From assembly GCF_004104055.1 (NCBI RefSeq), contig NZ_QOVJ01000004.1, positions 248,001 to 312,000 on the forward strand: a DNA stretch of 64,000 nucleotides, read 5' to 3'. Shown piece after piece: positions 8,243 through 58,160 of this stretch. This DNA is from Leeuwenhoekiella aestuarii. GTDB lineage: Bacteria; Bacteroidota; Bacteroidia; Flavobacteriales; Flavobacteriaceae. Position 1 is the first letter of the stretch. Every line of letters begins with the position of its first letter. The notes under the pieces are model-generated. The model was not told the origin of the DNA and searched no databases. It worked only from the letters and a program-made list of their open reading frames with translations. The translations under genes were made by a program, and so were the position numbers.

Positions 8243-8254
8243 TAAAACGTTTTA
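8243..8254. promoter_or_regulatory. Palindromic operator TAAAACGTTTTA (copy 2)
   Basis: A perfect 12-base palindrome 40 bases before the GH43 start. It heads the five-gene plus-strand unit 8295-16819. Confidence 0.75.
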
Positions 8255-24714: not shown

Positions 24715-24726
24715 TAAAACGTTTTA
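24715..24726. promoter_or_regulatory. Palindromic operator TAAAACGTTTTA (copy 3)
   Basis: A perfect 12-base palindrome 85 bases before the GH125 start, within the 216-base GH76-GH125 gap. It implies that the GH125 unit has its own promoter. Confidence 0.75.
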
Positions 24727-32076: not shown

Positions 32077-32088
32077 TAAAACGTTTTA
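32077..32088. promoter_or_regulatory. Palindromic operator TAAAACGTTTTA (copy 4)
   Basis: A perfect 12-base palindrome, 142 bases before the mannan SusC start and 8 bases from the 24-base palindrome at 32045-32068. Confidence 0.75.
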
Positions 32089-36765: not shown

Positions 36766-38568
36766 CTATTTTAAGTATGCATTAATAACTTTAGCTCTGC
36801 CGCTTCCTAAATTTGTAAGCTTAAATGTTTTAGCTGCAGCCGGCACTACAAAAGTTTCTGCATAGCTTAGCTTTTGGCTTTTACCGGTCTCTGTTTCCAA
36901 TTCAATTTGTTCTCCCTCAACCAACATCATAACATGACATGACCCTAAGGTTTCAATATTCATTGTTGTTTCAAAATCAAATCTTCTCACATCGTAAAAG
37001 TGTTCTTGATGTGTGGGATAATAAATAATTTCAAAATCTTTACCTTTTTCAATCTGCTGTGTATGAGAAAAAAGTTCTTTTTCTACTTTATCTCCCTTAA
37101 AATCAAACCTTAAATTATTGAAAGCGTGATCAATATTAATAGGTCTTGGGTTACCATCAAGATCTAACCTTAACCAATCATACATCTTAAATGTAAAAAT
37201 ATAAGGCGTAGCACTAATCTCAAGAACCATATTACCAGCTCCTGCACTATGCACTGTTCCGTTAGGTATTAAATACAAGTCGTGCTTCTTAGAGGGGTGC
37301 TGTTGTACATAATCTGTAATAGTAAGTTCAACGTTCTCTTCTTGACTTTTCACAAGTTCAGATCTGAACTTTTCAGCATCAATATCTTCCTGAAAACCTA
37401 GATATACACTTGCATCTTCATCGCAATCTAAAATGTAGTAACACTCGTCCTGCGTTATATTTTCACCAAATTTTTCTTGAATATATTTTAAACTAGGATG
37501 GCACTGTACAGAGAGATTGCCACCTTTATAGGTGTCTAAAAAATTAAAGCGAATAGGAAACTCATTACCAAATTTTTTATGATGTTTTCCGAGAATATTT
37601 TCTGCCTCCTGATGCATTAGAAAATCAAAAGAAAATTCCAGAAGGTGATTATCACTCTCAAGGATTAATCCATTTTCCGGGACTATCAAAGAAAAAGCCC
37701 ATGCATAATTAATGACATCTTTATTTAAACCTTCAATATGTTCCTTAATCCATTCTCCTCCCCAAGCTCCTGGCTCAAACCAGGGTCTTACTCTAAAAGA
37801 TGTAGTACTCATTTGTTTAAGAGCAGCTTTAACATCTTTCATAAATGCCCAGCTTGGCTCAAGTTGGTTTTGAGAATCAATTAGTATATCTATATATTTT
37901 GATAATCTGCGTTTTTCTGCATTCAATACTACCCAATCCACAAAGTAATACTGCTTATACATCTTAAAATTCTCTTTAGTAGCAGTTACTCCAAGATTAT
38001 AGACTTCCCCAGCACGCATGCGGTATTGAAGTTCATTTTTAGGCAGATCAAAATAGAGCAGAGTATGTTCAAAATTTACTAATGAGGCCCCAGATCCAAA
38101 AACAATAGTTACATCAACCTTTTCATCAACTTTAAGTGCATTTAACTTAGCATTATCAAAAAAATCTCCTATTTCAAGATTGCATCTGGTACCCCAAACA
38201 GACTCTTCGACACCAAGAAAAGGTCCTATCATTTCCTGAATTTGATCTTCGGGCTTTAAACTTTCTGAAATATCAATGAGATTAAATTTTAAACCTTTAG
38301 TGTTTAAATGATTGGCAACCTGTTCTATTATCTGGCTCCAATTAACACCTGAAAAACCATCTAAACAAACAGTTTTTTTAGTTGCTATGTAATTTGCAAG
38401 ACTATCAAACCCTCTATTTATTTTTTCTGAGCCCAAATCATGAGAAGGATACAAATCAAAATTTGAGTATTTATTCTGAGTTTCTCTTACCTCGGGGATT
38501 AAAAACTGTTCTGTTTTTCTTTTTAGAACTGAGGGTTCTAGGTGATAATCTTTTTCTAATTCCTGCAT
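36766..38568 (-). CDS. Class I mannose-6-phosphate isomerase-like protein with P-loop-like N-terminal domain
   Basis: A 600-residue cytoplasmic protein. The C-terminal half is a class I phosphomannose isomerase-type cupin. The metal-site strings are visible: SVQCHPSL (Gln355, His357), QDECYYIL and GTVHSAGAGNMVLEIS. The N-terminal roughly 230 residues resemble a nucleoside-kinase/uridine-kinase fold: VCLDGFSGVNWSQI in the Walker A place, LLYFDLPKNELQYRMRAG and YYFVDWVVLNAEKRRLSKYIDIL. The Walker A lysine is missing, so this part is probably a degenerate, regulatory or sugar-phosphate-binding domain. It heads the PMI-ROK-MFS-GH92 unit. Its role would be mannose-6-P to fructose-6-P. Candidate GntR sites lie just upstream. 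Confidence 0.8.
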   Translation of the reverse strand: MQELEKDYHLEPSVLKRKTEQFLIPEVRETQNKYSNFDLYPSHDLGSEKINRGFDSLANYIATKKTVCLDGFSGVNWSQIIEQVANHLNTKGLKFNLIDISESLKPEDQIQEMIGPFLGVEESVWGTRCNLEIGDFFDNAKLNALKVDEKVDVTIVFGSGASLVNFEHTLLYFDLPKNELQYRMRAGEVYNLGVTATKENFKMYKQYYFVDWVVLNAEKRRLSKYIDILIDSQNQLEPSWAFMKDVKAALKQMSTTSFRVRPWFEPGAWGGEWIKEHIEGLNKDVINYAWAFSLIVPENGLILESDNHLLEFSFDFLMHQEAENILGKHHKKFGNEFPIRFNFLDTYKGGNLSVQCHPSLKYIQEKFGENITQDECYYILDCDEDASVYLGFQEDIDAEKFRSELVKSQEENVELTITDYVQQHPSKKHDLYLIPNGTVHSAGAGNMVLEISATPYIFTFKMYDWLRLDLDGNPRPINIDHAFNNLRFDFKGDKVEKELFSHTQQIEKGKDFEIIYYPTHQEHFYDVRRFDFETTMNIETLGSCHVMMLVEGEQIELETETGKSQKLSYAETFVVPAAAKTFKLTNLGSGRAKVINAYLK

Positions 38569-42091: not shown

Positions 42092-45000
42092 TTAAAAATT
42101 AACATTGACACCTGCAGTTACAGTAACTGTTCTTGGGTAGAAGTTTCTATCGTCAATACCGGGATATAGCCCAGTATCCTGAACTTCTGGATCACGACCT
42201 GTGTAACCCGTGAACGTTGCTAGGTTTCTCGCGCTTCCAAAAATACGTAACGCAGTAAAAGGACTAGCTTCTGAAAGATTGAAATTATAACCTAGCGTAA
42301 GGTTATCTAATTTCACAAAATCCCCGCTTTCAAGGTAATAGTCTGAATATTGCGGAGCCTCACTAATCATACTGTATTGACCCAATGCAGAAGCAAGCAC
42401 GTTACCTGGTAATAAGCTTGGGTTTCCATAGAATAAGTCTACTGTGTTTAGAATATCGTATTTAAACTTACCTCGTAATAATACTGTAAGATCAAAATTC
42501 TTATATCTGAAGGTATTTGTTAAAGAAGCGTAATACTTAGGTAAACCATTACCTATTATCGCTTTATCCTCTTCAGTCATATCACTCGCTCTCCCTATAG
42601 TACCATCTGCTTTATGAAAAAGCCATTGACCATCAACTGTAAAACCGGCAAAGCGTTTTCCATAAAAGTTTCCTATAGGTCCTCCTTCAGTATTTCTAAT
42701 CGCATTTCCTAAATTTCCCGGGTTTCCTATATTACCACCATAGAGCTCACTAACTGAGAAAATTTGGTTTGAAAGTGTAGTAAGTTCGTTTTGCTGATAA
42801 CTACCTACAAGATCTACACTCCACTTAAAATCACCATCATCAATTACTCTATAGTTAAGTGCTACTTCAACACCATTATTAGTAATATTCCCTACGTTAG
42901 TATAAATACTTCCCTGTACAAACGGAGGTTGAGGCACGTCATAGCTTAGCAATAAGTCTTCAGTACGTCGGGTATAGTAATCTATAGACCCACTTAATTT
43001 ATTATATAAAATACCGAAATCAAGACCTATGTTGAATTCTTTTTTAGTCTCCCATTTTAGATCTGGATTTGGGTTTTTGACCGGTCCATACGTTTGATAA
43101 TAGGTAGCTCCATCAGCACCGTCTAAAAAAACCGGATATTTACCACCTGTGCCTAAGGTTACAATAGACTGATAATTGGGGATTCCCTGGTTACCGGTAA
43201 TACCATAGCCTGCACGCAGCTTTAAATTATTTAACCAGGTTGCATCCTGCACAAAATCTTCATCAGAAATCAACCAAGCACCAGATATCGCAGGGAAACT
43301 TGCCCATTTATTATTGGCTCCAAAACGTGAAGAACCCTCATGTCGTACAGAAGCCTGAAGAAAATAACGATCCTTATAATTATAACTTAATCTCGTGAAG
43401 TAAGCTATAAGTGTATTGTCTTCCTTAAAACTAGAAAGATTAGGTCTTGGTAAATCTGTATCTGTAATTGCATTTCCTGCTCCAAAATTCCAATCTTCAA
43501 AACCATCTGTAGTAAAACCACTATTATCCATCGAGTAGTTTTCGGTAGTTGAATATTGATAGCTATACCCCCCCAAAAGCTCAAAACTATTTTCACCTAT
43601 ATCTTTAGAAAATGTCATAGTAGGCTCAACCGTCTGTGTAAAATCTAGATGGCTTCCTTTGTAGGCATAACCCGTCCCAAAATAAGGACTACCCGTATTG
43701 TATTGCTGATAATCCTGAGTAGAACGGTAAAAACGATCATCCCAAGAATTTCTTTGGTAAGAACCAAAAACTGAAGCAATCAAACCAGGAAAAATTTCAT
43801 ACCCTACTTTTACATCTCCAGAAAATGTAAGTTGTTTACGCTGATTAAATCGGTTTGCATATTCAGAAAAAGGATTGTATCCGTTTTCTGGTTGGTAAAA
43901 TCCATAACGCCCTTGATTGAATAAAACACCTTCTTCTGAAGTATTAAACGGTGCATAAATAGGCGCAGTAGGATTCCAATCAGTAACAATACCAAATTGA
44001 CCACCACCTAATAGATTTGCATCATTAATATTAACAGCAGCACTTGATGAAAAGGTTAATTTGTCATCAAAACCCGTCTGATTAAAACTTGCACGTACAC
44101 CAAATTCTTCTCGACCATTTTCAAGTGCTATTCCTTGAGAATCTTTATAATACAGCGAAGCTCTATAATTACCGGTCTCACCACCACCCGAAGCTACAAA
44201 GTTGTGGTATTGTGTAAGATTTGACTTGTTTATTAACTCATCAAAAATATCTGTAGAAGCTCCTAAGTCGTTATTTGCACCTATAATCCCATCGGCAATT
44301 GCTTCTCTAAATTGATCAGCAGATAAAAAATCTGGTTTACTATTCACATAATCTCGTGAAACAAAAGTTGAGTAATTAAAAGTACTTACTCCTTTTTTAC
44401 CTTTTTTAGTAGTAATTAAGATAACACCATTTGTACCCCGAGTACCATAAATTGCTGCCGCAGCACCATCTTTTAACACATCAAAAGACTCTATATCATT
44501 TTGCTGAAGTAAATCAAGATTCCCTCCAGGAATACCATCAATTACGATAAGTGGTGAAGTTGACCCTGTAATTGAAGTAACTCCTCTAAGCTGAATTGCT
44601 GTCCCGCCATTAGGATTGTTACCGCCAGCTCTTGTTATTTGAAGACCTGCAACTTTACCCTGAATCAATTCTACAGCTGAAGATACAACACCTTGATTAA
44701 AATCTTCAGTTTCTACCTTAGTAACCGCCGTTGATACAGCTTTACGTTCTTGAGAACCGTAACCTATCAAAACAACTTCGTCTAGGGATTGCTCATCAGA
44801 TTCCATCGTTATAGTTAATGAATTTTGAGTACCTACCACCTGCTCAGTAGTGGTCATCCCAACATAAGAAAATTCTAATACCGAATTATTAGATGCTACA
44901 TCAATACTAAAGTTCCCATCAAAATCAGTCGCCACACCATTAGTGGTTCCTTTTTCCTTAACCGTAACTCCCGGAAGAGGCATCCCCCCAGAGTCTGTGA

Positions 45001-45106
45001 CTGTCCCGGTCACGGTCTTACTTCCTTGCGCAAGTATGTTTTGAGTGGTGATCATACCCATCGCACAGAAGAAAATCATAATAAATTTTCTTAGTTTTTT
45101 GTTCAT
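42092..45106 (-). CDS. SusC/RagA-family TonB-dependent transporter (second complete pair)
   Basis: A 1004-residue receptor with a signal ending QNILAQG. It has a carboxypeptidase-regulatory-like domain ('VTGTVTDSGGMPLPGVTVKEKG'), the plug start SLDEVVLIGYGSQ, the plug block PLIVIDGIPGGNLDLLQQNDIESFDVLKDGAAAAIYGTRGTNGVILITTKKGK, and a barrel ending VTAGVNVNF. It is preceded by three tandem copies of the shared operator, the densest regulatory array in the window, so this importer is likely under the strictest control. It heads a three-gene unit with SusD and the discoidin lipoprotein. Confidence 0.96.
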   Translation of the reverse strand: MNKKLRKFIMIFFCAMGMITTQNILAQGSKTVTGTVTDSGGMPLPGVTVKEKGTTNGVATDFDGNFSIDVASNNSVLEFSYVGMTTTEQVVGTQNSLTITMESDEQSLDEVVLIGYGSQERKAVSTAVTKVETEDFNQGVVSSAVELIQGKVAGLQITRAGGNNPNGGTAIQLRGVTSITGSTSPLIVIDGIPGGNLDLLQQNDIESFDVLKDGAAAAIYGTRGTNGVILITTKKGKKGVSTFNYSTFVSRDYVNSKPDFLSADQFREAIADGIIGANNDLGASTDIFDELINKSNLTQYHNFVASGGGETGNYRASLYYKDSQGIALENGREEFGVRASFNQTGFDDKLTFSSSAAVNINDANLLGGGQFGIVTDWNPTAPIYAPFNTSEEGVLFNQGRYGFYQPENGYNPFSEYANRFNQRKQLTFSGDVKVGYEIFPGLIASVFGSYQRNSWDDRFYRSTQDYQQYNTGSPYFGTGYAYKGSHLDFTQTVEPTMTFSKDIGENSFELLGGYSYQYSTTENYSMDNSGFTTDGFEDWNFGAGNAITDTDLPRPNLSSFKEDNTLIAYFTRLSYNYKDRYFLQASVRHEGSSRFGANNKWASFPAISGAWLISDEDFVQDATWLNNLKLRAGYGITGNQGIPNYQSIVTLGTGGKYPVFLDGADGATYYQTYGPVKNPNPDLKWETKKEFNIGLDFGILYNKLSGSIDYYTRRTEDLLLSYDVPQPPFVQGSIYTNVGNITNNGVEVALNYRVIDDGDFKWSVDLVGSYQQNELTTLSNQIFSVSELYGGNIGNPGNLGNAIRNTEGGPIGNFYGKRFAGFTVDGQWLFHKADGTIGRASDMTEEDKAIIGNGLPKYYASLTNTFRYKNFDLTVLLRGKFKYDILNTVDLFYGNPSLLPGNVLASALGQYSMISEAPQYSDYYLESGDFVKLDNLTLGYNFNLSEASPFTALRIFGSARNLATFTGYTGRDPEVQDTGLYPGIDDRNFYPRTVTVTAGVNVNF

Positions 45107-45162: not shown

Positions 45163-45220
45163 TAAAACGTTTTTACAACGTTAAAGTAAAACGTTTTAGC
45201 AATTTTAATAAAACGTTTTA
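45163..45220. promoter_or_regulatory. Tandem array of three shared operators
   Basis: There are perfect TAAAACGTTTTA copies at 45187-45198 and 45209-45220, and a near copy TAAAACGTTTTT at 45163-45174. They start 24 and 22 bases apart, about two helical turns. They lie 56-102 bases before the SusC start and over 140 bases from the divergent GMC gene, so they may serve both promoters. Confidence 0.75.
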
Positions 45221-45363: not shown

Positions 45364-47082
45364 ATGCAAATAAAAGAATCATCAAAAATCTACGATGTCA
45401 TCATTGTCGGCTCTGGTGCCGGGGGTGGTATGGCAACAAAAGTTCTGGCAGATGCCGGACTCAAGGTTGCAGTGGTAGAAGCAGGTCCTTATTTTGACCC
45501 TGCCGCCCCAGAACAACGCACTCAATTAAAATGGCCTTATGAGTCTCCCAGACGTGGTGCTTCTAACCGAAGACCTTTTGGTGATTTTGACAGTGCATAC
45601 GGTGGTTGGGAGATAGAAGGAGAACCTTATACTCAAAAAGATGACACGCAGTTTGACTGGTTTAGATCTAGAATGCTGGGTGGGCGTACCAATCACTGGG
45701 GGCGTATTTCTTTGCGTTTTGGAGAGCGAGATTTTAAACATTATAGCTATGATGGACACGGTGATGACTGGCCTATAGGTTATGAGGATGTCAAGCCTTA
45801 TTACGACAAAGTAGATAAACTTATAGGTGTTTTTGGTACTAAAGAAAATATAGAAAATGAGCCTGATGGCTTTTTCTTACCCCCACCCAAACCCAGACTT
45901 CACGAACTTTTCTATATAAAAGGAGCACGTAAATCTAACATACCAGTGATTCCATCACGTATGTCTATGCTTACTAAAAAGATAAATGAAGATCGTGGTA
46001 TTTGTTTTTATTGTGGGCAATGCTCTCGTGCGTGTGCGGTATATGCTGATTTTTCTGCAGGAACATGTTTGATCTTTCCTGCTCAAAAAAGTGGAGGTCA
46101 GATTGATCTTTTCGTGAATTCTATGGTACGTGAAGTAACCACAAATGAAGAAGGAAAAGCTACTGGGGTTTCTTACATTAGCAAAGACGATCGTAAAGAA
46201 TATAAACTCAAAGGCCGTGTCGTTGTGCTAGCAGCTTCTGCTTGTAGTTCTGCGCGAATTCTTTTAAACTCAAAAAGTGAGCAACATCCTAATGGTTTGG
46301 GTAATAGCAGTGATATGGTAGGTCGATATTTGCACGACTCTACCGGCGCTAGCCGTTCAGCTTTTATTCCAGATTTAATGAACCGGGATACCTATAATGA
46401 AGATGGTGTAGGCGGAATGCACGTATACACACCTTGGTGGGGCGATAATAAGAAACTGAATTTCCCTCGTGGATATCATATTGAAGTTTGGGGAGGTCTG
46501 GGAATGCCAAGCTATGGTTTTGGTTTTAACCCTAATGACCTCAACCGCTTTTTTAATCAGAAAGTTGGCGGCTATGGAAACAGTCTTCGTAAAGATATCA
46601 AAAAATATTACGGCTCTACAATAGGTATGGCTGGCCGTGGTGAGTCTATCGCTATGAAAGACAATTATTGCGAGATAGATCCTACCACGGTAGATGAGTT
46701 TGGTATTCCTGTGCTTCGTTTTAATTATAAATGGTCTGAACACGAAGTTAACCAAGCCAAACATATGAACGATTCTTTTGAAGAAATTGTGCACAATATG
46801 GGAGGTACTATGCTACAAGATGCTCCTTCAAAAGCGTCTAATTACGGATTAGAAAATCCTGGACGTATCATTCACGAGGTAGGAACCACCCGTATGGGAA
46901 GCGATCCTAAAACTTCAGTAGTAAATGAATTTCAACAATTGCACGATGTAGACAATGTGTTTATAGTAGACGCCGGTCCTTTTGTATCTCAAGCCGATAA
47001 GAATCCAACCTGGACTATTTTGGCGCTTTCGTGGAGAGCTTCAGACTACATCATAGAACAACTTAAACAGCAAAATATTTAG
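45364..47082 (+). CDS. GMC-family FAD oxidoreductase with Fe-S cysteine motif (sugar 3-dehydrogenase-like large subunit)
   Basis: A 572-residue flavoprotein. It has an N-terminal FAD motif DVIIVGSGAGGGMA, the GMC 'MLGGRTNHWGRISLRFG' block, and a C-terminal HEVGTTRMGSDP...NPTWTILALSWRASDYI carrying the catalytic His/Asn region. Cysteines 214, 217, 220 and 224 form CX2CX2CX3C, consistent with an iron-sulfur cluster like that of multi-subunit sugar dehydrogenases. No signal peptide is present. The next gene, four bases on, encodes a Tat-signal small subunit, so the large subunit probably hitch-hikes through Tat as a complex. Relatives oxidise gluconate, glucose, fructose or the C3 hydroxyl of glycosides. 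The DUF1080 and Gfo/Idh neighbours favour the last. Confidence 0.88.
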   Translation: MQIKESSKIYDVIIVGSGAGGGMATKVLADAGLKVAVVEAGPYFDPAAPEQRTQLKWPYESPRRGASNRRPFGDFDSAYGGWEIEGEPYTQKDDTQFDWFRSRMLGGRTNHWGRISLRFGERDFKHYSYDGHGDDWPIGYEDVKPYYDKVDKLIGVFGTKENIENEPDGFFLPPPKPRLHELFYIKGARKSNIPVIPSRMSMLTKKINEDRGICFYCGQCSRACAVYADFSAGTCLIFPAQKSGGQIDLFVNSMVREVTTNEEGKATGVSYISKDDRKEYKLKGRVVVLAASACSSARILLNSKSEQHPNGLGNSSDMVGRYLHDSTGASRSAFIPDLMNRDTYNEDGVGGMHVYTPWWGDNKKLNFPRGYHIEVWGGLGMPSYGFGFNPNDLNRFFNQKVGGYGNSLRKDIKKYYGSTIGMAGRGESIAMKDNYCEIDPTTVDEFGIPVLRFNYKWSEHEVNQAKHMNDSFEEIVHNMGGTMLQDAPSKASNYGLENPGRIIHEVGTTRMGSDPKTSVVNEFQQLHDVDNVFIVDAGPFVSQADKNPTWTILALSWRASDYIIEQLKQQNI

Positions 47083-47085
47083 ATT

Positions 47086-47799
47086 ATGGATAGAAGAGAC
47101 AGTTTAAAATCTATGTTTTTAGGTTCTCTAGGAACCGGTCTTTTTCTTACTGGATGCAATACTGATGTGTCTGCTCCAACTCCAGAAATTGCAAAAGCAG
47201 CTGAAGATTATTTTGGCCGAACCCCTGAAGAAGCTGCATTAATAGAAGAACTGAATTCTGAACAGTTTTTTAATGAGCACGAGATGGAAACCTTAAATAT
47301 TTTGTGTGCGCTCATTTTACCGGCAAACGATGAGTACGGGAGTGCTACAGATGCCGGGGTACCTGATTTTTTAGAGTTTATTGTTAAGGATATGCCCCAT
47401 TTAAAAACTCCAATACGCGGGGGATTGATGTGGCTGGATCACGCTTCTAATTCCAAATTTAATACTGAATTTAAAGAGGCATCTGAAGAAAACCAAAAAG
47501 CTATTCTTGATACCGTAGCTTTTCCTGATCCTGATAAGCCCGGTTGGGAACAACCCGTACAAGTACAGTTTTTCTCTTTGATGCGAAATCTTACGATGAC
47601 AGGATATTATACTTCAGAAATGGGTATTAAAGATCTGGACTATAAAGGAAATCAACCAAACATTTGGGATGGTGTTCCCGAAGAAGTTTTACAAAAGCAC
47701 GGCGTAAGCTACGATCCGGAGTGGATTGCAAAATGTGTTGATCAAAGTCAGCGTGGGGTTACAGCAGAATGGGACGATGAGGGAAATTTAATCACCTAA
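47086..47799 (+). CDS. Gluconate 2-dehydrogenase subunit 3-family protein (Tat lipoprotein)
   Basis: A 237-residue small subunit of the gluconate/sorbitol/glucoside dehydrogenase type. The N-terminus MDRRDSLKSMFLGSLGTGLF is a twin-arginine signal ending in a lipobox LTGC (Cys24), so the complex should be anchored to a membrane from the periplasmic side. The core has 'LNILCALILPANDEYGSATDAGVPDFLEFIV' and 'FFSLMRNLTMTGYYTSEMGIKDLDYKGN', typical of subunit 3. It lies four bases after the GMC gene and is followed by a strong terminator. No cytochrome c subunit is encoded beside it, so the electron acceptor must come from elsewhere or be a different carrier. Confidence 0.88.
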   Translation: MDRRDSLKSMFLGSLGTGLFLTGCNTDVSAPTPEIAKAAEDYFGRTPEEAALIEELNSEQFFNEHEMETLNILCALILPANDEYGSATDAGVPDFLEFIVKDMPHLKTPIRGGLMWLDHASNSKFNTEFKEASEENQKAILDTVAFPDPDKPGWEQPVQVQFFSLMRNLTMTGYYTSEMGIKDLDYKGNQPNIWDGVPEEVLQKHGVSYDPEWIAKCVDQSQRGVTAEWDDEGNLIT

Positions 47800-47820
47800 T
47801 AAAGTTTTAGCTATAGCACA

Positions 47821-47849
47821 CAAAAGCCTCCTGTATCAGGAGGCTTTTG
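47821..47849. terminator. Bidirectional terminator between convergent oxidoreductase units
   Basis: Perfect 13-base arms CAAAAGCCTCCTG and CAGGAGGCTTTTG around TAT, flanked by T- and A-rich runs. It serves the GMC unit (stop 47799) and can also stop the minus-strand unit that ends at 47960. Confidence 0.9.
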
Positions 47850-47959
47850 TATTTATAAAAGAATTTAATGACTCTAGTAAACTCTACCTTAAGGAAAAAC
47901 CGTGAAGCTTTTAAAGCTCGATTATCGAGTAAAACCTAGGATAAATTAAAGTTGAACGA

Positions 47960-49147
47960 TTAAATAGTATGCTTAGGATTCCATTGTACAATTTCATTAT
48001 TTAGCATAGAATCTATAGCCATCTGAACGCATATAGCCGTGTTTGCACCGGTTTTTAAGTCAGACAAAGGTTTTGTGTTATTCTTGATCGAATCTCTAAA
48101 ATCCATTAAAGCTTGTTTACTGGGATCTGCGTGACTAAACTCAAACGGAATACCTTTACCAGCTTCCCAAGGTATTGTTGCTCCTGCAACACCATCTACA
48201 TCTGCGCGTTTTTTAGTATAGTTTCCTTCCGGGTAAAACCATCCATTTACATAATCTAAAATGATGGTACCTTTATCACCCATTACTATAATTTGGTAAT
48301 CGTCTTTTGCATTTGTAGTGAGACAGGTAAATGTAGCCTCTACCCCGCTGGGATATGAAAACAGGTGGTGTACATTATCATAAGTTTCCCTGCCGTCCTT
48401 CCAGTAATCAATTCCACCGGTACCAAAAACTTGGGAAGGTGTTTCTCCTAGAACCCAGTTTACAAAATCAATTTGATGCGAACACAATTCTGCTGTTAAT
48501 CCACCTGAATATTCCCGGTACATGCGCCAGTTTATCATACGCTCTAATTCTGGTTTGGGAACATTACGTCGCCAATTACCACTGCGATTCCATTGACACT
48601 CAAATGCGGTTATCTTACCAATTTTTCCATCTTTGATAAGATCTACAACATGAGTATACAATCTGGAACTGTGATACTGATGACCAGTTTGAAAAACCAA
48701 ATCTCCTTTTTGAGCATCAACTACATTTAAAATATCTTCATAACCCTTAGCCATGGTTTTCTCTCCATAGACGTGCTTCCCAGCTGCCAAAGCATCTAAT
48801 TCTATCTGACCATGAGTACTGAACGGTGTGGAAACTAAAACTGCATCAATACTCTTATTTTCCAGCAATTTTCGGTAATCGGTATATGCTTTTGCAGAAT
48901 CACCAGCTCTCTTCATTCCATTATCTAAACGAAACGGAATAATATCACAGCAACCGACAACTTCTATCCCTTCGATACCATTCATTACAGAAATCAATCC
49001 ACCACCCCGATCTCCGGTACCAATAACGCCGATACGTATGGGCGCATTAGTTCCTATGTGTTTATTGATATAAGCAAATCCCGGACTAACAGATGAAACT
49101 GCCGCCGCCGCGAGACTGCTTTTTATTACAAAATCTCTACGCTTCAT
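47960..49147 (-). CDS. Tat-exported Gfo/Idh/MocA-family oxidoreductase (second of pair)
   Basis: A 395-residue NAD(P)-dependent-type oxidoreductase. The Tat signal is MKRRDFVIKSSLAAAAVSSVSPGFA. The Rossmann motif is GVIGTGDRGGG, the EKP signature is GEKTMAKG (Pro replaced by Thr), and the substrate-side block is SGGLTAELCSHQIDFVNW, with a His at the place where this superfamily usually has its catalytic His. It follows the related gene by six bases and closes the DUF1080 unit. The pair resembles the oxidoreductases of the Bacteroides 3-keto-glycoside locus, where they oxidise or reduce C3 of sugars with a tightly held cofactor. That assignment is an inference. Confidence 0.85.
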   Translation of the reverse strand: MKRRDFVIKSSLAAAAVSSVSPGFAYINKHIGTNAPIRIGVIGTGDRGGGLISVMNGIEGIEVVGCCDIIPFRLDNGMKRAGDSAKAYTDYRKLLENKSIDAVLVSTPFSTHGQIELDALAAGKHVYGEKTMAKGYEDILNVVDAQKGDLVFQTGHQYHSSRLYTHVVDLIKDGKIGKITAFECQWNRSGNWRRNVPKPELERMINWRMYREYSGGLTAELCSHQIDFVNWVLGETPSQVFGTGGIDYWKDGRETYDNVHHLFSYPSGVEATFTCLTTNAKDDYQIIVMGDKGTIILDYVNGWFYPEGNYTKKRADVDGVAGATIPWEAGKGIPFEFSHADPSKQALMDFRDSIKNNTKPLSDLKTGANTAICVQMAIDSMLNNEIVQWNPKHTI

Positions 49148-49153
49148 TTCTCA

Positions 49154-50491
49154 CTAAATTTTCGGTTCCCAATTAGGTTCATAATCCCGACTCCAAAGTT
49201 GCATAGCATCCCGATCATAAATTCGACCTGTTTTATCATCTATGTCAAAACCGTGACCTACCCGGTATGCCATATTTGCATAATGCACCATCGCCATACT
49301 TACTGAAGCATCTTCAATGGGTGCTTTCAAGGTTTCTTTTCCGCGAATGCTTTCAAAGAAATTGACCATATGTGCAGTTGAAGAGTCACCTCCACCCCCC
49401 AGTGCGAGTCCACTTTCATCGGTCTCATCACTCTGCTTAATTACTTTTCCACCGCGATCCATCAACAGATAATTAGAACGATCTACAAGTACTGAACCTT
49501 CGGTTCCAAAAATTAACGTACCGCGACCACGACCGTAAGTGTTATACCCATTGCGACTTTTGCCATCCCAATTGATGACTTTATCTTCTTCAAAGTTGAA
49601 CGTTGCATACATTGTATCATACATCTCCCAGCCATCGTTTTTAAAATGTCTTTTTTCAGCTTGAACCTCAGCATATTTTGGAAAATTTACGCCTAATGCC
49701 CAACGTGCAATATCCAATTCATGTGTTGCATTATTTCCGGTTTCTGCGGTACCATATGCCCAACCATACCAGTGCCAATTGTAATCCCATGTTTCACTGG
49801 TATACGCTCTTCTTGGTGCCGGCCCTTGCCATAAATCCCAATCGAGTCCGGCCGGTACAGCAGCCTTTTGTTGAATTGGCGTTTCTCCTCGTGCATTAGA
49901 ATAAAAAGCCACAGCTTTATATACGTCGCCAATTACACCTTTATGAATCTGATTGATGATATCTATCGTATGTAAAGAAGAGCGCTGCTGATTGCCCATT
50001 TGCACTTTTTTATCAAACTTTTTTGCAGCTGCTACCAGCAATTCATTTTCATTCATATTGTGACTACACGGCTTTTCTACATAAACATGTTTTCCAGCTT
50101 TTAAAGCCATAACAGAGCCCGGAGTATGCCAGTGATCTGGTGTTGCATTAACTAGAATATCTACATCTTTATCATCAATAACTTTACGTATGTCGTTCTC
50201 GAGTTTAGGACTGTAATCAATATGCTCTTTAAAATTCTTAAGCGCATTAAGTCGGCTTTTTTCCATCACGTCACATAGATATACTAAACGCGCATTAGAT
50301 TCTTTACGAGCTATGGGCGCATAATAAGCCCCCAGGCGACGACCAAGTCCTGCAACAGCAACATTAAGTCTGTCATTTGCTCCTATAATATTGCGATAAC
50401 TACTGGCAGCCATACCCATTGTGGTGTTACTCAAAGCCAAAGCCGTACCGCCTAAAAGTGATTTATTTAAAAAAGATCTCCGTGTTGTCAT
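49154..50491 (-). CDS. Tat-exported Gfo/Idh/MocA-family oxidoreductase (first of pair)
   Basis: A 445-residue protein with Tat signal MTTRRSFLNKSLLGGTALAL. Rossmann motif VAGLGRRLG, intact EKP signature VYVEKPCSHN, then 'DWDLWQGPAPRRAYTSETWDYNWHWYGWAYGTAETGNNATHELDIARWAL', with GNNATHELD at the usual catalytic-His position. It differs from its partner in length and signature, so the two probably have different substrates. It begins two bases after the DUF1080 stop. A periplasmic NAD(P) enzyme must bring its cofactor bound through Tat and recycle it in place, which fits a paired oxidation/reduction. Confidence 0.86.
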   Translation of the reverse strand: MTTRRSFLNKSLLGGTALALSNTTMGMAASSYRNIIGANDRLNVAVAGLGRRLGAYYAPIARKESNARLVYLCDVMEKSRLNALKNFKEHIDYSPKLENDIRKVIDDKDVDILVNATPDHWHTPGSVMALKAGKHVYVEKPCSHNMNENELLVAAAKKFDKKVQMGNQQRSSLHTIDIINQIHKGVIGDVYKAVAFYSNARGETPIQQKAAVPAGLDWDLWQGPAPRRAYTSETWDYNWHWYGWAYGTAETGNNATHELDIARWALGVNFPKYAEVQAEKRHFKNDGWEMYDTMYATFNFEEDKVINWDGKSRNGYNTYGRGRGTLIFGTEGSVLVDRSNYLLMDRGGKVIKQSDETDESGLALGGGGDSSTAHMVNFFESIRGKETLKAPIEDASVSMAMVHYANMAYRVGHGFDIDDKTGRIYDRDAMQLWSRDYEPNWEPKI

Positions 50492-50493
50492 AA

Positions 50494-51870
50494 TTAAAGT
50501 TCTTTGATTTTGATGTTTTTAAAAGCTACACGATCTCCGTGATCCTGAAGTAGTATGTTTCCCTTTTCAAATGTTCCGAAGCCTGGCCAGTCTTTATATT
50601 TACTTTCTTTAACCAGTTGTAAAAAAGCATCGGTATTTCTATCATATTCAAGCACTTTTACATCATTTAACCAATGTGCTACATGATTATCTTTACTCAC
50701 AATTCTTGCGGTGTTCCATTCTCCTATAGGATTCACTGGTTTAGCAGGGTCTGCCTGAATTAAATCGTACAAAGAAGCCAATGTGCGACTACCTTCGTGA
50801 TTACCTAACTTAGCATCTGGATGACGCATATCATCTAAAATCTGATACTCTAAACCAATTGAAGAACCTTCTCCTTTATTCAAGTCTGTATCTACATAAT
50901 ACTTAATACCACTATTTGCACCTTCAGTGATTTTAAAATCTACTTTGAGTTCAAAATCCTGATATTGTTTTGTAGTCACAATATCTCCTCCTGCCGCAGA
51001 CTCTTCACCTCCGGTAGCAAGTACAATAAGTTCTCCATTCTCTATAACCCACCCCTTTTCAGGGAAATGATCTAGTTTTCCTCCACGCCAACCATCAGTG
51101 GTTCTACCATTCCATAATAGTTGCCAACCGCTTTCTTTTTCGGCTTGTGTTAAACTGTTTTTCGTATTGAATGCCTCCAGCCCCATTGGCTTTGCATACT
51201 GTTGTACATTTTCTGTAATAATGTTGATATTCTTCCAACGAATTTCTTTACCCGGCTTATCGTTATTTCCGATTGAGTGAACCTGCAGTGCTATAAAACC
51301 TGATGCAGTCTGGTCATCAATTAAGTGCGCAGCCTCCACCCCATTGATCCAGGTTTTTAAAGTATCACCCAAAGCTTCTACCCGATAGTGATTCCATTCT
51401 CCTTGCTTAAAAGCTTGCTGTGCTTTTGTATTTCCTGTTAACGGATATAGCCATCCCTTGCGCGCCTCATCATAAATACCAGCACTCCAGGCCCGGTCTG
51501 AAGGATCAATCTCGATCTGATAACCATGTACTCTTCCATCCTTAAAATCAGGTTGGCTTAAACTGCGGATTTGTATTCCGGAATTCATAGTAGAATCTAC
51601 TTTATAGTCTAATTCTAAAATAAAATCTCCATAATCCTGAGTCGTTGCCAAAAAAGAATTAGGAGTATTCGCTACTGTAGTTCCCACAATTTCATCCCCG
51701 TCTATTTGATAATCTGCTTTACCATTCAACTGCTCCCAACCGGTAAGAGATTCTCCATCAAACAAAGGTTCCCAGGGTTCGTTACTGTCTTGATTTGATT
51801 CTTTACAGGAATTTAATACGAGAACTCCTGCTATAAAGAGTGGCAAGAGCTTCAAATTCTTTGTAATCAT
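50494..51870 (-). CDS. Tandem DUF1080 (3-keto-glycoside-acting) lipoprotein
   Basis: A 458-residue lipoprotein (signal ending GVLVLNSC, Cys22). It holds two DUF1080 concanavalin-like jelly rolls: one of about residues 35-215 ('[17 protein letters not shown]' to 'WKNINI') and one of about 235-458 ('[16 protein letters not shown]' to '[11 protein letters not shown]'). DUF1080 is the family now linked to cleavage or hydration of 3-keto-glycosides. Each repeat keeps the NSGI(Q/K) string: MNSGIQIRS and [10 protein letters not shown] set the start at 51870 (MITKNLKLL); an upstream ATG would extend into the preceding terminator. Two domains may allow sequential elimination and hydration, or one may only bind. 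Gfo/Idh genes follow with two- and six-base gaps. Confidence 0.85.
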
Positions 51871-51939: not shown

Positions 51940-51975
51940 AAATAGCGGAAGCCTCTTTAGGTTCATCCGCTATTT
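51940..51975 (-). terminator. Terminator between GH92-F and the DUF1080 unit
   Basis: Ten-base arms AAATAGCGGA (51940-51949) and TCCGCTATTT (51966-51975), loop 16 bases. On the minus strand the stem runs into TTTTTTTATAAG. It begins only three bases past the GH92-F stop, so the DUF1080-Gfo/Idh genes need partial read-through or their own promoter within 51871-51940. Confidence 0.85.
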
Positions 51976-51978
51976 AAC

Positions 51979-54024
51979 TTAGTTTAATTCAACTTTTGTT
52001 ATAAAAGAATGGGTTGTTCCCCAACCCGTATTAGGTATTTTACTGGTTTCGATAATTAAGTTTCCGCCAGATTGTATTTCCTGATGTGTCAACCAGTTTC
52101 GGTTTATAGGTTTACCGTTTAAACTAGCTGATTTCACATAAAAATGGTCTTTATTGTAATTCTTCACTGAAATTTTAAACGTTTTACCCGGAGCTATATT
52201 CAGTTTTACTTCCTCAAAAATGGGCGCTGTCAAATAATAAATAGGGCTCCCAACATTTGCTACCGAAAGACCGATACTGTGTAACACAAACCAGGAAGAC
52301 ATGGTCCCTGCATCGTCATCCATCGTGCGTAAATAGGCTTTGGGTTTATTTTGATATATACGCCCAATAAACGGATCGATCCCTTTACTATTGTCATTAA
52401 AATACGTCTGCACTACGGTATCCAGAAGAATTTCTCTAAATAACTTTTGTGACTTCCAAGGTTGGTTTGTGGCGTTATACAATCCCGGGACTTGCAAGTC
52501 TGGCTGATTGGCATGATTGTAATTGAACTGTTCAAAAAATTGATCTAACTGATTTGTAAAATTTTCTGAACCACCTGCCAAACTTTGTAATCCTTTTATA
52601 TCCCAGGGTACAAACCAGCGATATTGCCAAATAGTTCCCTGATAGAGCCCCCTTGCCTGCATACGGTCTACATCATTTTTAGTCAGATCTTTAAAATCCT
52701 TATCCCAATAAGCTTTATAATCTAAAGCCTTATTCAAATATTCTTTGCCGGCATCTGTATCGCCCATCACCTTAAAGATCTCACTCATTGCCCACAAATC
52801 GTAAGAAGATTCTAAAGCTTTATCCGGCGCACCAAAATCGAGCGTTTTACTCTCATCTATTAAAGAATCTCTTATCGCTTTAAAATCTACCTGATACCCT
52901 TTTTTATAGGCATCAAGCAAAACAACCATTGCATGTTCAGTACGAACGGTAGGCGAAGTTTCATGTTCTGTTGCCCAATTCTTTTTCCCGAAGCGATACA
53001 GGTTTGCAATGCTCGTAGTGATATCTTGATAAACATCAGGATATACCAGAGAAAGTAGGGGCAACTGCTCTCTGTAATTATCCCAGATTGCCCAACCGTT
53101 ATACACCTTATAATCTTCATTCTGAACAGAGCCATCTGTTGCTCTAAAGGTACCATCTTCTTCGGAAACTAAAAACGGAGACTGTGCGGTACGATACAGT
53201 AAAGAATAGAATAAATCTACGCGATCCTGCTCACCTTTGACCTCAATATGATTCAATTGTTTTTCCCAACTTGCCGAAGCTTCTTCTTTAAGTTGACTGA
53301 AGGATTTAGAAGTAATTCTCTTTTTTGCATAACCTTCATTTACCGAAGAAAAACCAACCTGAACTTGAGCTGCTACCCCAACTGATTTAACAAGCAATCT
53401 GTGTGCATCAAGCTCTTGAATAATCGCTGTTTCCGGCAATTTAATCGCGTAATAAATACGGTAAGTCCCCGCGTGGCAAGTTGTTTTAGTATCTATATAA
53501 CCCGAAATTAAATTTCTTCTGATCTCGTGAGTTTCTGAAACAAAGCGATTGCTCAACGCAAAAGACAGATCAATGAATAAACCGCTGTTTGTATTAGGAA
53601 AACTGTAGTTGTGCATCCCCAGATTTTGAGCAACGGTCATTTGTGCTTCAATTCCATTTTCAAAATTCACCTCATAATAACCGGGTGTTGCTTGCTGCTT
53701 GGTGCGTATCAAATCAGTCTCAGCATCTGCATTGAGTATGGGTTTTATAAGAATATTACCACCGCTTCCGGTACAACCTACACCTTCCATTCTGGTATGT
53801 GTAAAGCCATCAAATTCTTTAGCATAATACTCATACCCCGTATGCTGGTGTGGATTAGTCTGCGGCCCCAGATTCATCATATTAAAAGGCGTAGTCGCTG
53901 AAGGGGACATCTGCCCGTGATCGCCACTCGTACCTAAAAAGACGTTTACAGATCTATTTTTTTGTTGCTGTGTATAACCAGATAGTGCAAGAAAACAAAG
54001 GAGAATCGGGATAATTTTATTCAT
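51979..54024 (-). CDS. GH92-family protein with Gln at the catalytic-acid position (paralogue F)
   Basis: A secreted 681-residue GH92 protein (signal ending LSGYTQQ), the shortest of the six. Early marks are 'FLGTSGDHGQMSPSATTPFNMMNLGPQT' and GFTHTRMEGVGCTGSGGNI. The acid block reads YQGTIWQYRWFVPWD: position 462 is Gln (codon at 52639-52641) where the other five have Glu in E(G/A)N(A/S)W. The base block MDDDAGTMSSWF (Asp569-571) is kept at the right distance, so this is not a decayed gene. I recall the same Glu-to-Gln change in a bacterial GH92 that removes mannose-1-phosphate caps, where no acid help is needed. A phosphodiester-cleaving or otherwise unusual mannosidase is therefore plausible. 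It shares a unit with the MFS gene 47 bases upstream. Confidence 0.87.
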   Translation of the reverse strand: MNKIIPILLCFLALSGYTQQQKNRSVNVFLGTSGDHGQMSPSATTPFNMMNLGPQTNPHQHTGYEYYAKEFDGFTHTRMEGVGCTGSGGNILIKPILNADAETDLIRTKQQATPGYYEVNFENGIEAQMTVAQNLGMHNYSFPNTNSGLFIDLSFALSNRFVSETHEIRRNLISGYIDTKTTCHAGTYRIYYAIKLPETAIIQELDAHRLLVKSVGVAAQVQVGFSSVNEGYAKKRITSKSFSQLKEEASASWEKQLNHIEVKGEQDRVDLFYSLLYRTAQSPFLVSEEDGTFRATDGSVQNEDYKVYNGWAIWDNYREQLPLLSLVYPDVYQDITTSIANLYRFGKKNWATEHETSPTVRTEHAMVVLLDAYKKGYQVDFKAIRDSLIDESKTLDFGAPDKALESSYDLWAMSEIFKVMGDTDAGKEYLNKALDYKAYWDKDFKDLTKNDVDRMQARGLYQGTIWQYRWFVPWDIKGLQSLAGGSENFTNQLDQFFEQFNYNHANQPDLQVPGLYNATNQPWKSQKLFREILLDTVVQTYFNDNSKGIDPFIGRIYQNKPKAYLRTMDDDAGTMSSWFVLHSIGLSVANVGSPIYYLTAPIFEEVKLNIAPGKTFKISVKNYNKDHFYVKSASLNGKPINRNWLTHQEIQSGGNLIIETSKIPNTGWGTTHSFITKVELN

Positions 54025-54071: not shown

Positions 54072-55391
54072 TTAGGCTATTTCGGCAATGTTATGTTTTT
54101 TATGAATCCACATCCCATAAATCGCGACACTCACAAAACAGATAACGGGTAGTAAAAAAGACAAGTTCATTTCTGATAGACCCATTACGGTAATGTCATT
54201 AACTTCTACTCCTCCTAAATCTATAATCATTCCTTGTAGCTTAGGTAACAATGCTCCACCTACGATTGCCATAACCAGACCTGCAGCGCCTATTTTAGAC
54301 TGGTCTTCTTTTAAACCTTCTAAAGCGATACCGTAAATAGTAGGGAACATAATCGAAAGAAAAAGGGAAACCATCACCAAACTGTATAAACCAGCATCTC
54401 CCTCTAAAACGACTGTTCCTAAAGCAAATAGACCTCCTAATGATGAGAAATAAAATAACAATTTGCCCGAACTTATAAACTTCAATAAATAAGTACCTAT
54501 CGCACGCCCTACCGTAAACAAGATGAATGCAACCAATTGATAATTTGCAGCTGTAGAACTGGAGATCCCTTTGGATTCAGCATATTGGTAAATGTAGGTC
54601 CAGCATCCTATTTGCGCACCCATATACAATACTAACGATATCACGCCCAGGGTGTACTTCTTATTTTTAAACAACTCTGCAAATGTATCTTTAATGCTAG
54701 GCATAGCCCCATCTCCTTTAGCCTGCGGCATTTTGTTCACCGCGATTAGGATTAAAATAGCTAAAACAACCAGACCTAAAATCACATACGGGTTCCGAAT
54801 CACCATCAAATCTGCAGATTTTATAAGGAGCTTTTGAGCTTCCGGCAGTGCCGAAAAATTCTCAACATCGTCAGATTGTAACAAATCAAGAACAAAGAAT
54901 TTTGCTACCATCAAGCCCACAATCAACCCAACCGGATTGAATGCCTGCGCCAGATTTAAACGCTGTGTGGCTGTTTTTTGATCTCCCATCGCAAGAATAT
55001 ATGGGTTTGCGGTAGTCTCTAAAAATGCCAGACCAAAGGTAAGAATGTACAATCCTAAACAGAAAAACCAGAATTGCCCGGTTGTTGCTGCGGGGTAAAA
55101 TAATAAGGCGCCACCGGCGTAGAGCGTGAGACCAACCAAAACTCCTGACTTGTACGAGAACTTACGTACGAAAAGTGCCGCCGGAAGCGCCATGCAAAAA
55201 TATCCTCCATAAAAAGCCATCTGTACCCATGCGGCTTGTGAATTGGATAATTCTAATACTTTTTTAAAAGCCTGAACCATTGGATCTGTTACCGCATTTG
55301 CAAACCCCCATAGTGCAAATAAAGATGTAACCAGAATAAAAGGGAGTAGTAATTTTTTAGGGACAACCGGAGTTGCTTGAGATGTATTCAT
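54072..55391 (-). CDS. FucP-type MFS sugar:proton symporter
   Basis: A 439-residue inner-membrane protein of the fucose/glucose-galactose permease branch. The first segment contains the family string FALWGFANAVTDPMVQAFKKVL with the transport-linked Asp. YGGYFCMALPAALFVRKFSYKSGVLVG follows, and 'LETTANPYILAMG' marks the middle. About twelve membrane segments are visible. It is first in a unit with GH92-F, and a shared operator lies 134 bases upstream. It probably imports the monosaccharide released in the periplasm (mannose is likeliest). This branch differs from the other MFS gene (34606-35769), so two cargos or affinities are possible. Confidence 0.9.
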   Translation of the reverse strand: MNTSQATPVVPKKLLLPFILVTSLFALWGFANAVTDPMVQAFKKVLELSNSQAAWVQMAFYGGYFCMALPAALFVRKFSYKSGVLVGLTLYAGGALLFYPAATTGQFWFFCLGLYILTFGLAFLETTANPYILAMGDQKTATQRLNLAQAFNPVGLIVGLMVAKFFVLDLLQSDDVENFSALPEAQKLLIKSADLMVIRNPYVILGLVVLAILILIAVNKMPQAKGDGAMPSIKDTFAELFKNKKYTLGVISLVLYMGAQIGCWTYIYQYAESKGISSSTAANYQLVAFILFTVGRAIGTYLLKFISSGKLLFYFSSLGGLFALGTVVLEGDAGLYSLVMVSLFLSIMFPTIYGIALEGLKEDQSKIGAAGLVMAIVGGALLPKLQGMIIDLGGVEVNDITVMGLSEMNLSFLLPVICFVSVAIYGMWIHKKHNIAEIA

Positions 55392-55525: not shown

Positions 55526-55537
55526 TAAAACGTTTTA
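55526..55537. promoter_or_regulatory. Palindromic operator TAAAACGTTTTA (copy 7)
   Basis: A perfect 12-base palindrome 134 bases before the MFS start, in the gap after the CE1-like esterase. It would control the MFS-GH92-F unit. Confidence 0.75.
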
Positions 55538-58148: not shown

Positions 58149-58160
58149 TAAAACGTTTTA
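58149..58160. promoter_or_regulatory. Palindromic operator TAAAACGTTTTA (copy 8)
   Basis: A perfect 12-base palindrome only 11 bases before the sulfatase start codon. It must overlap the leader or transcription start, a place suited to repression by roadblock. Confidence 0.75.

Follow-up and report, generated by a model that had tools for sequence, protein, structure and literature searches.

What are sugar dehydrogenases, and proteins of a kind linked to the cleavage of glycosides without hydrolysis, doing in a locus for alpha-mannan? The question is posed by a 64-kb stretch of the Leeuwenhoekiella aestuarii genome (4.43 Mb), bases 248001-312000 of contig C4, the whole of which is called the window here. 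Family scans of the window's proteins make it a single large alpha-mannan-type locus, with the susCD pairs, GH76, GH125 and several GH92 that characterise an alpha-mannan polysaccharide utilization locus (PUL). At 45364-51870 five genes stand in two convergent units on opposite strands. One encodes a GMC flavoprotein and its subunit 3, the other a protein with two DUF1080 domains (DUF1080x2) and two Gfo/Idh/MocA proteins, GfoA and GfoB. All five are intact open frames matching their families above the Pfam cut-offs.

An earlier reading of the bare sequence, the original prediction, had recognised these genes down to the cysteine motif of the GMC protein, the twin-arginine translocation (Tat) signals and the lipoproteins, and had likened the set to the known non-hydrolytic route through 3-keto-glycosides. 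Gene calls and likeness both stand. It had also joined the genes into a single integrated pathway for attacking mannosides, and this is not supported as written: GMC with subunit 3 and DUF1080 with Gfo are separable modules. Newly found is a palindrome common to the mannan units and both redox modules. The reading favoured here, which is held to be moderately probable, is of two periplasmic redox modules under an apparent LacI-type switch of the alpha-mannan locus, serving a route of C3 oxidation, elimination and hydration.

A conserved DUF1080-Gfo cassette

The minus-strand unit belongs to an operon of five genes, given here in operon order.

54072-55391, minus strand: FucP-type major facilitator superfamily (MFS) sugar transporter, the operon's first gene (TIGR00885, 487.5 bits against a cut-off of 280.4)
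51979-54024, minus strand: GH92-like protein, with Gln at the motif position taken as that of the general acid
50494-51870, minus strand: DUF1080x2 lipoprotein, with two PF06439 ('3keto-disac_hyd') stretches, 302 bits
49154-50491, minus strand: GfoB, Tat-signal Gfo/Idh/MocA protein (Pfam GFO_IDH_MocA) with a twin-arginine start
47960-49147, minus strand: GfoA, Tat-signal Gfo/Idh/MocA protein (Pfam GFO_IDH_MocA) with a twin-arginine start

The last three genes are separated by gaps of 2 and 6 bp, and the twin-arginine starts of both Gfo proteins predict their export. The longest frame for DUF1080x2 opens at 51966; with the start at 51870 the protein has a lipoprotein signal whose box reads LNSC. 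The two occurrences of PF06439 in one chain provide the DUF1080 hallmark of a non-hydrolytic 3-keto-glycoside pathway.

The pairing of (DUF1080)2 with Gfo is conserved as a cassette. Among 59 cassette loci from Flavobacteriaceae outside the genus, the gene that follows DUF1080x2 in the same orientation encodes a Gfo protein in 56 (51 best labelled GfoB and 5 GfoA; of the other three loci, two have another gene there and one was not usable). The same holds for 14 of 20 cassette loci from other families. Among 40 control stretches, none contained a DUF1080 gene and two contained a Gfo gene. The 59 loci derive from 60 of 106 matching rows, mostly the top-scoring ones, after exclusion of one (L126) from the genus itself; two genomes contribute two loci each, and the surroundings were read over up to 20 kb per locus. 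Neighbours were labelled by their best BLASTP match at E <= 1e-15 against a reference set made up of the window, the genome's own C1 cluster (below) and a few loci, some matches having less than 30% identity, and the same rule was applied to the controls. The latter came from 34 cassette-holding genomes at round-number positions picked by hand, not drawn by a program (one, L218, contains UxaC and UxuA, and another, L242, a C1-type cluster). The cassette protein is widespread: at E <= 1e-60, DUF1080x2 has matches, some covering one domain only, in 96 of the 299 Flavobacteriaceae genomes sampled and in 80 of the 395 from Bacteroidota. [At L186-L189, from one other Bacteroidota family, DUF1080x2-GfoB-GfoA is followed in each of four genomes by a common run of unlabelled genes, and there are no susCD labels.]

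Each DUF1080 domain keeps its own invariant residues, and His198 and His444 are present in 81 of 81 rows. The two-domain architecture is shared with a solved chain of 431 residues, 4jqt (E 2.5e-173), which can be aligned over both DUF1080 domains but is labelled merely 'putative glycosyl hydrolase'. Identity between the C-terminal domain and the single DUF1080 of a cluster on the genome's own contig C1 is 38%. A neighbour in that cluster matches the solved 2-hydroxy-3-keto-glucal hydratase 8ro4 (E 2.3e-165), and the cluster further contains another Gfo protein and a second GMC. The best relative of GfoB among solved structures is 8tdf ('Dehydrogenase'). For GfoA, the solved relative 8tdi, named glucuronide-3-dehydrogenase, ranks below 8tdf, and the alignment shows EKT in place of the motif EKP.

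A palindrome shared with the mannan genes

The 12-bp palindrome TAAAACGTTTTA is present in 8 copies in the window, the most of all 4096 palindromes of its length, the next having 2. All 8 are within the 5.4% of the window that is intergenic. Its core, AAAACGTTTT, is found 9 times where 0.27 are expected in shuffles. In the genome as a whole there are 13 copies of TAAAACGTTTTA (3 of a reversed control), and 10 of them are within 65 kb, C4:240991-306160.

2986-2997: one copy, before GH92a-Gfo0-phosphatase
8243-8254: one copy, before GH43
24715-24726: one copy, before GH125-GH92-GH97
32077-32088: one copy, before susC-susD-susE-GH76
45163-45220: three copies (one mismatch in the first) between a divergent susC (42092-45106, minus strand) and GMC
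55526-55537: one copy, upstream of FucP-GH92-DUF1080x2-GfoB-GfoA
58149-58160: one copy, before the sulfatase gene
C4:239775-240806 (L095:11775-12806), left of the window: LacI-family gene, 0.2 kb from the leftmost palindrome

Two more copies are left of the window. Palindromes with a central CG before successive units, together with an adjoining regulator gene, have the form of a LacI-type regulon, the sites being predicted ones. As the palindromes are shared with the mannan genes, both modules are predicted to be co-regulated, and hence co-expressed, with the mannan enzymes. The finding that the original prediction had named as fatal to it, that these genes are never co-expressed with the mannan genes, is for the same reason not indicated.

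One or two copies are near GMC in six other genomes of the genus (G144, G681, G680, G683, G679 and G685); three short GMC loci, L267-L269, where GMC is 78-80% identical, have none. The 12-mer is in none of the 40 controls and, among 79 GMC loci, only in that of Leeuwenhoekiella palythoae (L008), whose GMC is 97% identical to that of the window.

[Next to the LacI-family gene is a gene for a BSP-type peptidase and then one for a DUF5127/glutaminase A-type protein; palindromes are close to both.]

The GMC protein and its subunit 3

45364-47082, plus strand: GMC flavoprotein, large subunit (Pfam PF05199/PF00732, GMC_oxred_N/C, above cut-offs)
47086-47799, plus strand: subunit 3 (Gluconate_2-dh3, Pfam PF13618, E 1.4e-34)

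No signal peptide was seen in the GMC protein. Subunit 3 has a twin-arginine start and the lipobox LTGC, which make it of Tat-lipoprotein type, and is presumed to be the carrier of the GMC subunit. The CX2CX2CX3C motif of the GMC protein is formed by Cys214, 217, 220 and 224, invariant in 24 aligned sequences including the window's own. Three of the four align with cysteines of 6a2u, in a loop that carries an iron-sulfur cluster. This flavin adenine dinucleotide (FAD)-dependent glucose dehydrogenase and fructose dehydrogenase are the closest solved sequences. The likeness to 6a2u extends to a Cys loop that is partly alignable, but it is a distant one (E 9e-38, with part of the chain aligned), and no haem protein was seen among the 37 window proteins tested. 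Structure prediction from 24 close sequences reached a mean predicted local distance difference test (pLDDT) score of only 41.4.

Of 86 GMC copies, 84 (found in 78 of 79 GMC loci) are followed within 400 bp by a subunit-3 gene, so GMC and subunit 3 form a conserved pair by themselves. These loci are the best 79 of 583 relatives; some are cut by contig ends and many come from related genera. The genome's own second GMC, beside the single-DUF1080 cluster on C1, is 34% identical. GH92 genes are near GMC in 5 of the 79 loci and near the cassette in 4 of the 59, with none in the 40 controls. [Immediately upstream of GMC and subunit 3 at L067, L073, L074, L075 and L076 is a gene for a cytochrome with seven CxxCH motifs, a candidate electron acceptor of a sort not seen in the window. 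In Arenibacter-type loci (L027, L030, L034, L035, L037, L048, L053 and L071) two pairs of GMC and subunit 3 are in tandem, each locus with a UxuA-type gene.]

A proposed route

The cassette likely mediates C3 oxidation, elimination and hydration. A Gfo protein, exported with bound nicotinamide adenine dinucleotide (NAD), would oxidise C3 of the glycosyl unit. A DUF1080 domain would then eliminate the leaving group at C1 to give a 2-hydroxy-3-keto-glycal, to which either the other domain or that same domain would add water. Reduction of the 3-keto sugar would again be by a Gfo protein, with the nicotinamide cycling without a soluble pool, and the MFS transporter would import the freed sugar. 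GMC and subunit 3 would constitute a Tat-exported FAD/Fe-S sugar dehydrogenase passing electrons to the respiratory chain; the pair could supply 3-keto sugars to the cassette without being a fixed part of it. Elimination through a glycal would erase the configuration of C2, so that a mannoside would be released as 3-keto-glucose and the final product would be glucose, not mannose.

That elimination and hydration take place in one molecule is the most economical reading of the fused DUF1080x2 protein. The 3-keto-O-glycoside lyase of Bacteroides thetaiotaomicron is presumably a DUF1080 protein, and its His275 may correspond to His444 of DUF1080x2. That lyase both eliminates and hydrates, and since its H275N variant is hydration-deficient, one lyase can do both steps (PMC13273386; papers are cited here for the part of each that was at hand). 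The same succession, from 3-keto-glucoside through 2-hydroxy-3-keto-glucal to 3-keto-glucose, is catalysed elsewhere by enzymes of another fold (PMC10628242). As to the oxidation, BT2158 of B. thetaiotaomicron is a periplasmic glycoside 3-dehydrogenase required for growth on trehalose (PMC11300592), and a protein like it is encoded near the left end of the window.

5364-6812, plus strand: Gfo0, a third Tat-signal Gfo/Idh/MocA protein, BT2158-like, with a twin-arginine start, between GH92a and the phosphatase gene

Gfo0 is outside the stretch that the original prediction considered and was missed there. It scores 483.2 bits (E 7.5e-145) against NF058561 ('glycoside 3-dehydrogenase'), below the cut-off of 750, and matches the solved chain 8tdf at E 2.3e-98. 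On these sequence scores it is Gfo0, rather than GfoA or GfoB, that is closest to the characterised BT2158.

Several observations weigh against the proposed reading. Against NF058561, the BT2158 equivalog, GfoA and GfoB reach 90.3 and 139.5 bits, far under its cut-off, and against NF058563, the BT2159 equivalog (cut-off 650 bits), they reach 38.8 and 38.5 (Gfo0, 39.9). No AP_endonuc_2-type hydratase was found among the 37 window proteins scanned, though there is one on C1. The same 37 proteins, a set that leaves aside the one running off the right end, have no CxxCH haem motif. The stand-alone cassettes L272 and L273, which are outside the mannan locus, have no palindrome, and the 12-mer is in 0 of the 59 cassette loci of other genera, so that only one sub-lineage has the link to the mannan switch. 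Of these 59 loci, 7 have the 10-bp core by itself, and so do 4 of the 40 controls: a single core means little, and it is the clustering of copies that is the evidence. Of ten DUF1080 genes in Pedobacter, not one showed a phenotype on lactose (PMC9007349), and a Thermogutta DUF1080 protein is reported to be an ordinary endo-xanthanase (PMC10881899).

Which glycoside?

Outside the genus the recurrent context of the cassette is hexuronate catabolism. Fifteen of the 59 cassette loci have UxaC, UxuA or TRAP (DctM) genes, 11 of them genes of two or all three kinds, versus 1 of 40 controls (Fisher p 0.002, uncorrected for kinship). The mannoside substrate of the original prediction is not supported as written; what speaks for it is the predicted regulon. 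It is possible, if on balance unlikely, that the cassette acts on glycosides of uronic acids and in this locus strips an acidic or unusual decoration of the mannan, not mannose. Consistent with this, the marker genes are scattered over the DUF1080 tree (they mark 20 of the 80 rows that carry labels and imply no fewer than 12 changes, on a quick tree with SH-aLRT branch support only), and GMC, subunit 3 and the cassette are together inside such operons at L067, L073, L074 and G201. At L192 a different GMC and the cassette are beside uronate-type genes, and there is the name of 8tdi, the GfoA relative, despite its rank. The genome itself has UxaC and UxuA elsewhere, on C10 and C7. However, 44 of the 59 loci have none of the three markers in the stretch read, and they are present in just 2 of the 20 other-family loci. 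Among GMC loci they are in 13 of 79, nine of these being Arenibacter by title. The GH76 and GH125 of the window imply an alpha-1,6-mannan backbone, uronate genes were sought in the mannan locus and none found, and no glucuronidase motif was recognised when the window GH2 was read by eye. Nor does the genome's own uronate operon on C10 have a DUF1080 gene in the 20 kb read.

Another decoration is suggested by the GH92-like protein of the operon, which has Gln in its motif YQGTIWQY where the window's other five GH92 have Glu; Gln is also present at L008 and L126. The Glu of motifs of this type is, we take it, the GH92 general acid, and Gln in its place marks enzymes freeing mannose from mannose-1-phosphate caps. 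Given that meaning, and a phosphatase gene in the locus, phosphomannan is a possible substrate. In solved GH92 enzymes the general acid is Glu533, Glu535 or Glu531 (PMC5930347).

Does the GMC protein act at C3?

The GMC and subunit 3 pair might instead oxidise C1 or C2 of a free sugar, as an energy-yielding side-branch having no part in C3 chemistry. Its best matches in the PDB, FAD-glucose dehydrogenase and fructose dehydrogenase, point that way, as does the lack of DUF1080 in the stretch covered at 72 of the 79 GMC loci. What makes this distinctly doubtful is the company that GMC keeps: a 3-keto-type neighbour (DUF1080, Gfo or AP_endonuc_2 type) is present in 36 of 79 GMC loci versus 2 of 40 controls (DUF1080 at 7, Gfo at 14 and the isomerase type at 29). 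At L060 and L077, genes for a BT2158-like Gfo, a single DUF1080, GMC and subunit 3 are consecutive; in L060 they are 81, 36 and 5 bp apart.

One unit or two?

47820-47850, between the two units: terminator-like hairpin, bidirectional, a perfect inverted repeat with 14-nt arms and a 3-nt loop

The single pathway of the original prediction would have GMC, subunit 3, GfoA, GfoB and DUF1080 together oxidise C3 of mannosides that GH92 cannot cut. The convergent units are divided by the hairpin above, which came from an inverted-repeat search; scans for promoters and terminators were no richer than shuffles (24 versus 27.3 and 5 versus 6.7). In L. palythoae, other genes intervene between the units. 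[L008 and G683 are probably one strain, the distance from GMC to the DUF1080 gene being equal.]

All 13 genomes of the genus have a GMC match, and nine of them also have two-domain DUF1080; of the four that do not, one is 81% complete. In five of those nine the two genes are less than 10 kb apart, which with the common palindrome speaks for one pathway. Yet they do come apart, as found on reading the surroundings at four of fourteen places of interest. G679 and G685 (L270, L271) are without two-domain DUF1080, and in them GMC and subunit 3 either adjoin the same susC/susD pair or are flanked by FucP on one side and ROK/GDSL/GH92/Gfo0 genes on the other. In G687 and G682 (L272, L273), there is no GMC in the 12 kb read around DUF1080x2-GfoB-GfoA, the GMC of these genomes being on a different contig.

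In the family as a whole, 47 of 299 genomes have both GMC and DUF1080x2, and in just 3 of the 47, two of them of the window's genus, are they within 20 kb (the count used 98 rows; 8 partial or distant rows were dropped, among them the G139 match, a one-domain DUF1080 86 bp from GMC). An odds ratio of 5.6 for co-occurrence in the family, uncorrected for kinship, is not relied on. GMC with subunit 3 and the cassette as one conserved unit was rejected, each occurring without the other nearby.

The meeting of the two modules nevertheless seems not to be purely accidental, in view of those 36 GMC loci, L060 and L077, G139, and the full sets at L067, L073, L074 and G201, where all five gene types are in one direction. 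In the DUF1080 tree the full sets belong to a single starred clade, and they may reflect one event. GH92, GMC and subunit 3 are co-directional at L032, L036 and L041. With nothing to indicate mannose as the oxidised unit, the single mannoside pathway is quite improbable.

Least probable is a plain hydrolytic role for the DUF1080 protein, as its Thermogutta counterpart would suggest, with the Gfo proteins acting on unrelated small molecules: the near-constant pairing of tandem DUF1080 with Gfo and the relatives among solved structures argue to the contrary.

Relation to known systems

The chemistry of the route is already known from other bacteria; its placement in an alpha-mannan locus is the variant. 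The original study of the B. thetaiotaomicron route reportedly identified BT2157 as the hydrolase/lyase and BT2158 as the dehydrogenase. DUF1080 and Gfo/Idh/MocA proteins of periplasmic type are common to both systems, Gfo0 being BT2158-like. In the window, however, two DUF1080 domains are in one protein, GfoA and GfoB are distant from BT2158 and BT2159, no hydratase gene is seen beside the cassette, and the predicted regulatory sites are common with the alpha-mannan locus. LacABC glycoside 3-dehydrogenase is like the window's pair in having a GMC large subunit and subunit 3, periplasmic and near DUF1080, but the window has no cytochrome c gene among the 37 proteins and its GMC belongs to a Flavobacteriaceae-wide group.

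LacABC-type GMC dehydrogenases near DUF1080 are reported for Caulobacter, Halomonas, Algoriphagus and Indibacter, lactose users that include Bacteroidota (PMC9007349). To this extent the combination, which the original prediction thought not described, was already in print; an addition of it to a GH92 locus was not met among the papers listed from the open-access literature, outside which are most subscription journals, and none of those listed joined DUF1080, GMC and a GH92 locus. One review mentions enzymes of both families, DUF1080 and GH92, from different organisms and in connection with xanthan (PMC10881899). Salegentibacter sp. Hel_I_6 has the same tally as the window of six GH92 with GH43, GH125, GH2 and GH76 (PMC9213526), to which the window adds GH97 and GH127; 'dehydrogenase' and 'oxidoreductase' do not appear in the main text of that paper. 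PULs for sulfated mannan or glucuronomannan in marine Flavobacteriia likewise share GH92, sulfatases and susCD (PMC6298971, PMC9723552, PMC13063451). They differ in that 'oxidoreductase' is in none of the three main texts, and 'dehydrogenase' appears twice, in PMC6298971, for mannitol.

Other features of the locus

The alpha-mannan-type contents of the window are six GH92, GH76, GH125, GH43, GH2, GH97 and GH127, with several SusC/SusD genes, esterases, one sulfatase, one phosphatase and ROK-family genes.

36766-38568, minus strand: 600-aa protein between ROK and GntR genes, with no Pfam or NCBIfam match at E <= 0.001; its C-terminal end, by eye, is like a mannose-6-phosphate isomerase-type cupin
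60316-64000, plus strand: sensor/regulator protein (propeller, kinase, receiver) continuing past the window's right edge, possibly a second regulator of the mannan locus
C4:219746-220438 (L007): DUF1080 gene with an in-frame TAA, adjoining a susC gene, probably a decayed copy

Implications

A bolder form of the idea is that the alpha-mannan regulon has its own redox glycosidase, comprising three Gfo proteins, the fused DUF1080x2 and a respiratory GMC, for mannosyl units that GH92 cannot release. This we consider improbable; capped, phosphorylated or acid-decorated ends would be examples of such units. If the favoured reading is right, a cassette for non-hydrolytic cutting has been wired into a mannan regulon by marine Bacteroidota, and counts of hydrolases alone would understate what such loci digest. 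The palindrome offers a cheap test of which genes belong together, and the fused DUF1080x2 is one enzyme in which domain-wise mutation could separate elimination from hydration. The wide spread of the cassette makes its substrate a family-wide question in Flavobacteriaceae.

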